Shown: positions 6,707 through 8,153 of the stretch, one piece after another
Position numbering within the stretch: the stretch's first letter is position 1
How the letters are laid out: the number at the start of each line of letters is the position of its first letter
Origin: Acidimicrobiales bacterium
GTDB lineage: Bacteria > Actinomycetota > Acidimicrobiia > Acidimicrobiales > Aldehydirespiratoraceae
Assembly (NCBI GenBank): GCA_029263195.1
Contig: JAJCXX010000003.1
Location: 50,325 to 114,324, forward strand
Reading direction: 5' to 3'
Length of the DNA stretch: 64,000 bases
Notes under the pieces: model-generated
Told to the model about the DNA's origin: nothing
Databases searched by the model: none
What the model saw: the letters and a program-made list of their open reading frames with translations, nothing else
Program-made: the position numbers and the translations under genes

Positions 6707-7423
6707 ATGGATCGGGCTCCGAAGTTGATCGCAGCGTCATTGGTCGGATTTCTGGCTGTAGTGGCGATCGGTTGGTTGGTGTGGTCCGACGGCGAATCGC
6801 ACTCGCCCGCTGGGATCCCGGCGGCCACGTCGTTTCCGGCGATCGACCACGACCCGGCCGCGGCCGGCGATCTCGAGGTCGCATGGCGGGCTTGGCGAAA
6901 CGGAACATTTGTCGTGCAAGGCACCTGGACACGAACCCTTGACTCCGGTGGTTCACCCCTAACCGGTCCGACCCTTGTGGTCCAGGATCCGCCGCGTCGG
7001 GTCGTGCAGCGACTCGGCGCAACCGCTGAACTCTTCGACGATCGGGTCGCGGCATGTGAACCCGTGACCGGCAACGGCCCGGATGAAGTCGATGCAGTCG
7101 GTGTGGCACCGTGCGTGAGTGGTCAGGCGGGTCTCAGCTACGACGATCGGGTAACGATAGAATTGGCCACCGTCGCGGACTATGTCACCGGTGTGAACCG
7201 GATCTACGACATTGATCGCGGACCGATTGAGGGATGCTTTCGTGCGGAGTTATCCGTGTCGGCGCTGGCCTCACCGTGGGGTAGATGGGCCCAATTCTGT
7301 TTCGATTCCGACACCGGAGCCATGATCTCGAGTCGGATTCGTCGTCAGTCGGCGGTCGACGTGGAGGCCGCTTCGGTCGTGTCCACCGACGTCAGCGATT
7401 CCGACTTCCCCGAATCGTCGTAG
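6707..7423 (+). CDS. Hypothetical membrane-anchored/secreted protein
   Basis: N-terminal hydrophobic segment LIAASLVGFLAVVAIGWLVW; no family recognised. Confidence 0.6.
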   Translation: MDRAPKLIAASLVGFLAVVAIGWLVWSDGESHSPAGIPAATSFPAIDHDPAAAGDLEVAWRAWRNGTFVVQGTWTRTLDSGGSPLTGPTLVVQDPPRRVVQRLGATAELFDDRVAACEPVTGNGPDEVDAVGVAPCVSGQAGLSYDDRVTIELATVADYVTGVNRIYDIDRGPIEGCFRAELSVSALASPWGRWAQFCFDSDTGAMISSRIRRQSAVDVEAASVVSTDVSDSDFPESS

Positions 7424-7459
7424 TCATCGATCGACCGGCTTGTTCGGAGAAGTTGAGAG

Positions 7460-7590
7460 GGGGCGGAGGCTGAATGAGTGCGCCAGCACCCTGGAAAAGC
7501 GCTGGTGGCGATGCATTGGAGGGAGTATTCAACCCCCACCCTTCTCTCTGCGACCAGCGGGGGCGATACCGCTGGCCAGTATCTCTATCG
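7460..7590 (+). repeat. Tandem structured repeat, copy 1 (candidate ncRNA/cis-regulatory RNA)
   Basis: Imperfect copy of 7663-7790; shares a 28-nt identical block (7499-7526 = 7701-7728) and 13-nt tcaacccccaccc; hairpin CCAGCGG-N8-CCGCTGG (7554-7575). Strand assumed. Confidence 0.75.
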
Positions 7591-7662
7591 GCGCGGGAAT
7601 GGCCGTCCATGAGCAGAATTCCGTAGTTCTGCGAACAGATCATTCTTGCCGGGGGGTGAAAT

Positions 7663-7790
7663 GGGGTGGAGGTTGAATGACAGCGCTAGCACCCTGGAAG
7701 GCGCTGGTGGCGATGCATTGGAGGGAGTTCTCAACCCCCACCCGATCTCTTGGCAAACGGGGGCGAATCCGTTGGCCGCCACCCCTATCG
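7663..7790 (+). repeat. Tandem structured repeat, copy 2 (candidate ncRNA/cis-regulatory RNA)
   Basis: 12-bp (one mismatch) outer stem 7664-7676/7731-7743; inner stem CGCTAGC/GCTGGTG (7684-7690/7703-7709); hairpin CAAACGG-N8-CCGTTGG (7754-7775) with a compensatory change relative to copy 1. Strand assumed. Confidence 0.75.
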
Positions 7791-7943
7791 GACCACAGGT
7801 GCCGACTTTGAGACGAAGTCCTCAGAACATGCCGAAGGTCCCGGTTGGACGATGAGGTTGGTAATCAGTGAGACTGCGACGGCTCAGATCGGCTCGGACA
7901 AATGGAGTCGACTGCAAGCTGAAATTTCCTACGGAGGTCTCGG

Positions 7944-8153
7944 GTGTTCTTGGGTGACAATTTGTTGGCGTGGTTGGTTCTGGCGATCGGTGGTGCCATG
8001 GCGGCCGGAAACCTCATGGCGATCGTGCGCCCGCCCGAAACAAAGAACGACGACAGCGATCTCGAACGGGCGCCACTCATCCGAAGCATCGTGTTCATAG
8101 CGGTCGGCCTCGTGGCTTCGGTATGGGCAATTGCGAGCTTGATCAACTCCTGA
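7944..8153 (+). CDS. Small two-TM membrane protein, unknown
   Basis: GTG start preceded by GGAGG; 69 aa with two hydrophobic segments (LLAWLVLAIGGAMAAGNLM; SIVFIAVGLVASVWAIASL). Confidence 0.6.
   Translation: MFLGDNLLAWLVLAIGGAMAAGNLMAIVRPPETKNDDSDLERAPLIRSIVFIAVGLVASVWAIASLINS

Follow-up and report, generated by a model that had tools for sequence, protein, structure and literature searches.

An undescribed family of structured small RNAs with predicted sigma-28-type promoters in the Acidimicrobiales

Small RNAs dependent on sigma-28 (FliA) have been described in Escherichia coli (UhpU, MotR, FliX and FlgO; PMC10578931) and in Campylobacter (CjNC1/CjNC4; PMC4626219), and a FliA promoter also precedes APsRNA3, APsRNA6 and APsRNA7 of Bdellovibrio (PMC3627812). 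Within the same sigma family, WhiG is associated with sporulation in Streptomyces and, as reported for Rubrobacter, with control of type IV pili (PMC8325347). A search of the open-access literature returned no sigma-28-type small RNA linked to WhiG or to the Acidimicrobiales, which falls short of proving that none has been reported. Here we describe a new RNA family of this already known functional kind, found outside a flagellar context. Like the FliA-dependent RNAs, its members are small RNAs under a sigma-28-family promoter and probably constitute a post-transcriptional arm of a regulon. Unlike the UTR-derived E. coli set, they are intergenic genes with promoters of their own, and unlike the FliA-dependent RNAs in general they have actinobacterial hosts, most of them lacking FlhA, and no flagellar link; no relation of sequence or structure to these RNAs emerged from Rfam scans. 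With WhiG regulons the family shares promoter type, sigma family and pilus genes as plausible co-regulated genes, the differences being that the associated sigma factor is a second family member, here termed W2, and that the conserved promoter-bearing element is a small RNA.

Two further groups of RNAs invite comparison. The 6C and B11 RNAs resemble the present family in being structured and in exposing C-rich loops suited to Shine-Dalgarno pairing. Unlike 6C and B11, the latter a small RNA of high-GC Gram-positives (PMC10470900), the RNAs described here combine a hairpin with a long stem bearing an asymmetric C-rich internal loop and use a different promoter class; 6C gave no match in our Rfam scans, in which its model is taken to be included. 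A long stem broken by an internal loop is also a feature of 6S-type RNAs, such as the 6S-like scr3559 of Streptomyces (PMC8539372), from which the family differs in its asymmetric C-rich loop, its alternative-sigma promoter, the lack of an Rfam 6S match and its absence from most genomes of the order.

The window (the whole 64,000-nucleotide stretch of an Acidimicrobiales genome analysed here) contains an element in two imperfect copies, about 200 bp apart, in the positions where a sequence-only reading had first placed them. Their similarity is far beyond chance, and homologues were recovered from other genomes by both blastn and a covariance model. Details which that reading had described were likewise seen: the copies share a 28-nt block and TCAACCCCCACCC, and they differ by a 1-nt indel and, in the 3' hairpin, by the exchange of a G-C pair for A-T. 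Its proposal of a structured non-coding RNA with covarying stems was sound in substance and mistaken as to strand, since the RNA genes are encoded on the minus strand, as follows.

7458..7578, minus strand: RNA copy A, 121 nt, 132.5 bits to covariance model R1, minimum free energy -61.1, z -4.55; composed of hairpin 1, a long closing stem (P1), a C-rich internal loop and an inner hairpin (P2)
7551..7578, minus strand: hairpin 1 of copy A, whose loop contains UCGCCCC
7506..7526, minus strand: C-rich internal-loop strand of copy A (ACUCCCUCCAAUGCAUCGCCA), conserved; proposed pairing or recognition surface
7483..7505, minus strand: copy A, inner hairpin P2, whose sequence is almost invariant
7661..7778, minus strand: RNA copy B, 118 nt, 115.6 bits to R1, minimum free energy -54.5, z -4.26; upstream of copy A on this strand
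7708..7728, minus strand: C-rich internal-loop strand of copy B, the counterpart of that in copy A

Fold z-scores of the single copies A and B were -4.55 and -4.26 on the minus strand versus -1.18 and -0.95 on the plus strand, and the consensus fold energy of 35 copies was -33.9 kcal/mol on the minus strand versus -10.7 on the plus. Furthermore, P1 is fully paired on the minus strand, with G-U wobbles where the plus strand shows A-C mismatches; the extra C-A mismatches previously noted in the outer stem of copy A are thus real in the plus-strand letters, while representing only the reverse-complement shadow of minus-strand G-U pairs. Together with the other strand tests, these values led us to reject a plus-strand RNA. 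Covariation was examined in an alignment of the 35 copies that had not been fitted to the structure: both sides had changed in 16 of 31 pairs, double-change cells numbered 92 compared with 24.5 in shuffles, 92.9% of cells paired, and the signal was lost when partner columns were slid by 1-3 positions. The RNA interpretation therefore withstood the covariation check suggested for it. A conserved protein-coding ORF is ruled out, as had been argued from the indel, since no frame is open in all copies and copy lengths are spread over all three phases. Within the resulting structure, hairpin 1 presents a conserved loop (AUUCGCCCC/UAUCGCCCC) on a freely covarying stem, P1 comprises 12-15 bp, one strand of the internal loop is C-rich and conserved (CUCCCUCC..GCAUCGCCACC), and P2 hardly varies in sequence; across families, P1 and hairpin 1 covary strongly, with P2 and the internal loop remaining nearly invariant.

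A scan of the window against Rfam 15 (4227 families) gave no match at or above a gathering cut-off, the best being ar7 with 12.5 bits against a cut-off of 60 (E = 5), and six divergent loci returned nothing at E<=1, bearing out the earlier statement that no known riboswitch consensus could be recognised. A covariance-model search, also suggested earlier, covered 299 genomes drawn from the order and identified homologues in 57 of them; E-values of the model used (R1) are rough, and among its matches in families f24 and f30 those weaker than about 45 bits may be false. Contigs matching R1 are named Acidimicrobiales or Microthrixaceae, and in a draw of 398 genomes from the phylum matches were confined to genomes of this order. 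Sampled genomes carry one to three copies in the family of the window and one copy per matching genome elsewhere in the order. The two copies of the window were placed in different clades of the copy tree, which dates their duplication to before the genus and rules out a recent tandem duplication; they are old paralogs of one undescribed structured small RNA. A third candidate copy in the same genome (C95:23236-23350, 38.9 bits) has no promoter and was judged spurious, and a Sandarakinorhabdus contig (L062) found by pattern scan scored 10.6 bits with the model and was rejected as a coincidental match. A contig labelled Acidobacteria bacterium ATN2 (L063), probably a mislabelled actinobacterial MAG, was also seen to contain a complete copy of the RNA (77.6 bits) with a sigma-28 promoter and the adjoining two-TM gene described below.

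Upstream of about 58 of 65 copies we identified the motif CTCAAG (or TAAAG)-N14/15-GCCGATA, which ends approximately 7 nt before hairpin 1 and falls outside the covariance model. Judged by its sequence, this is a promoter of FliA/WhiG (sigma-28) type, in agreement with the published flagellar/WhiG consensus of TAAA at -35 and GCCGATAA at -10 (PMC8325347). Both copies of the window are preceded by it.

7608..7613, minus strand: predicted -35 element of copy A, CTCATG (consensus CTCAAG), spacer 15
7586..7592, minus strand: predicted -10 element of copy A, GCCGATA, sigma-28/FliA/WhiG type
7807..7812, minus strand: predicted -35 element of copy B, CTCAAA, spacer 14
7786..7792, minus strand: predicted -10 element of copy B, TCCGATA

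Seven f20 copies (L038, L039, L044, L046, L053, L054 and L056) possess instead, equally far from the RNA, a sigma-70-like promoter consisting of TTGGCA or TTTACT followed, mostly after 17 nt, by GATAAT or GATACT. This apparent switch of promoter class from sigma-28-type to sigma-70-like implies that W2 cannot drive all members of the family, and also that the RNA itself has been kept, not the promoter alone. Strong intrinsic terminators were found behind 9 of 64 copies, compared with 0.3 expected; the scan found none behind the two copies of the window.

The genome of the window encodes two sigma factors of the FliA/WhiG family: WhiG, which meets its NCBIfam equivalog with 371.7 bits, and W2, which scores 200.9 bits to the subfamily model and falls below every WhiG/FliA NCBIfam equivalog cut-off.

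L110:5026-5976, minus strand: W2 gene, on contig C3 of the same genome, outside the window; the product has a C-terminal extension

In the window's family, represented by 51 genomes, W2 is present in 20, of which 17 have the RNA, and absent from 31, none of which has it (Fisher p 8e-11, relatedness not corrected). Concordant loss of W2 and RNA recurs within genera g1, g3 and g9. Among genomes possessing only one of the two sigma factors, the RNA is lacking in WhiG-only genomes (G003, G028 and G039) and present in W2-only genomes (G025 and G036). Across the order, all 57 RNA-bearing genomes encode a FliA/WhiG-family sigma factor and none of the 89 genomes without one carries the RNA; in our interpretive reading, six of the RNA-bearing genomes have a WhiG-type paralog only, accompanied by weak RNA matches. 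The association with W2 is correlative and comes from a sample of genomes that includes many fragmented assemblies. In contrast, the flagellar marker FlhA, absent from the window's own genome, is unassociated with the RNA (10 of 57 genomes with it versus 55 of 242 without, p = 0.48), a distribution across the 299 genomes that led us to reject a flagellar link; the hosts are mostly non-flagellate Acidimicrobiales. In six genomes W2 was also observed on the same contig as the RNA, 40-60 kb away.

We propose that every copy constitutes an independent gene whose product is a structured small RNA some 120-170 nt long; RNA polymerase with a FliA/WhiG-family sigma factor, most likely W2, would transcribe it from the minus strand. 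The transcript would fold into a 5' hairpin that exposes UCGCCCC in its loop and a long, GC-rich stem displaying the conserved C-rich strand and the invariant inner hairpin. On direct inspection, the exposed C-rich loops are complementary to Shine-Dalgarno-type sequence; these surfaces would most likely pair with the G-rich Shine-Dalgarno and start regions of mRNAs of the same programme, probably those of pilus or surface genes and perhaps of the sigma factor itself, and would lower their translation. We favour this reading, a small RNA dependent on a sigma-28-family factor and pairing with mRNA starts, with modest confidence. If true, it would define an undescribed RNA family that tracks one sigma-28-family factor, and not flagella, in mostly uncultured bacteria, where the RNA could serve as a marker for the W2 regulon; it would also suggest that non-flagellar sigma-28 programmes, too, have a small-RNA arm. 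The covariance model is ready for use in annotating these genomes.

Possible members and targets of such a programme were sought in the same genome. The promoter pattern was matched in front of an Flp pilin gene (L102) and of the genes at L101, which we take to be DUF1800-like, and L103, presumably an ECF-like sigma factor. All three matches are intergenic, and the L102 gene is a second Flp pilin gene. The Flp pilin leader contains two blocks complementary to the RNA, both in this genome, where the pairing ranks at approximately 1% of random windows, and in G001. This leader is at most a candidate target: swapping of partners did not worsen the pairing (p = 0.75), and G003, which has no RNA, retains the same leader. 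The start region of W2, which carries GGGGCGAUG with the Shine-Dalgarno sequence GAGGGAG, is likewise no more than a candidate, its pairing statistics being weak (median p about 0.1-0.2 across genomes). The Flp pilin 5' leaders (L135, L129, L128, L131, L134, L136, L118 and L125) also possess a conserved hairpin of their own (TTCGCCACC..GGTGGCGA), in which compensatory changes seem to have occurred; GGGAGTCCACCC-ATG follows it, a promoter-like CATAAG-N16-GCCGAAG site precedes it, and these leaders may possibly be regulated in their own right.

The near-invariance of P2 and the internal loop could reflect a protein or ligand partner instead of mRNA pairing. The RNA might thus be a protein-binding or decoy RNA, 6S-like or CsrB-like, or a sponge for an anti-sigma factor or RNA-binding protein, in which the invariant internal loop and P2 form the binding site and the covarying stems merely present it. 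The conservation pattern is what such a model would predict, and the UCGCCACC motif is common to the RNA and the hairpin of the Flp pilin leaders; however, neither 6S nor any other Rfam family matches, and C-rich loops complementary to Shine-Dalgarno sequence are those of base-pairing RNAs, such that we regard a decoy as unlikely, if worth keeping in view. More speculatively, and with somewhat less conviction still, the invariant core may be the binding site for a protein, such as RNA polymerase or an anti-sigma factor, or for a second messenger such as c-di-GMP, and the RNA may thereby form a feedback switch acting on a sigma-28-family programme that is non-flagellar and controls Flp pili.

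A free-standing aptamer that buffers a small molecule, such as c-di-GMP, which controls WhiG via RsiG, would also accommodate a compact, highly conserved core without a gene downstream. Known aptamers seldom have C-rich loops of this kind, which counts against it. Switching of WhiG under c-di-GMP control (PMC8325347) and the proposal of ligand buffering by merRNA in Bdellovibrio (PMC3627812) lend this idea precedent, yet the RNA is not a leader and matches no Rfam riboswitch model; we consider an aptamer improbable.

Several of the remaining alternatives involve the genes around the RNA.

7944..8153, plus strand: gene for a 69-aa protein with two TM segments, a conserved neighbour, divergent from the RNA in most loci
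6707..7423, plus strand: gene for a 238-aa protein, a conserved convergent neighbour on the 3' side of copy A

Neither protein has a Pfam or NCBIfam match. The two-TM gene adjoins the RNA in about 51 of 54 loci and is codirectional with it in three (L012, L034 and L068), and the 238-aa gene and dnaB often occupy the other side, dnaB being nearby in about 20 loci. The two-TM gene is also present in 199 of the 299 genomes of the order, many of them RNA-less, and sampled two-TM loci from RNA-less genomes hold no RNA remnant above 16 bits; being widespread without the RNA, the gene marks the locus and is not an obligate partner. With the RNA on the minus strand, the earlier description of this gene as lying downstream of the element was wrong as well, the two being divergent. 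Cis-antisense action on the convergent 238-aa gene or on the 5' leader of the two-TM gene could be envisaged from the RNA 3' end, which in many loci is directed towards the convergent gene, and from the distance of only about 50 nt to the two-TM start in L032, L033, L035 and L049. Cis-complementarity would nevertheless leave the conserved structure and loops unexplained, distances and gene orders vary, and in some loci the neighbour is missing or codirectional, making this scenario about as improbable as the aptamer.

Both options raised by the sequence-only reading fare worst, since an RNA confined to one locus per genome and usually divergent from the two-TM gene fits neither a leader riboswitch nor a mobile element. 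Control of the two-TM gene by a riboswitch or tandem leader on the plus strand has that gene's frequent adjacency in its favour and is very improbable given that structure and covariation fit the minus strand, that the copies have their own promoters, on the other side, and that the gene is codirectional only in the three loci named above and often occurs RNA-less. A mobile or palindromic (MITE/REP-like) element, or a replication site near dnaB, would suit stem-rich repeats present in one to three copies and is equally remote, as there is a single syntenic locus with no dispersed copies, single-copy in the other families sampled, and the fixed promoter spacing and G-U-asymmetric covariation of the stems favour an RNA.
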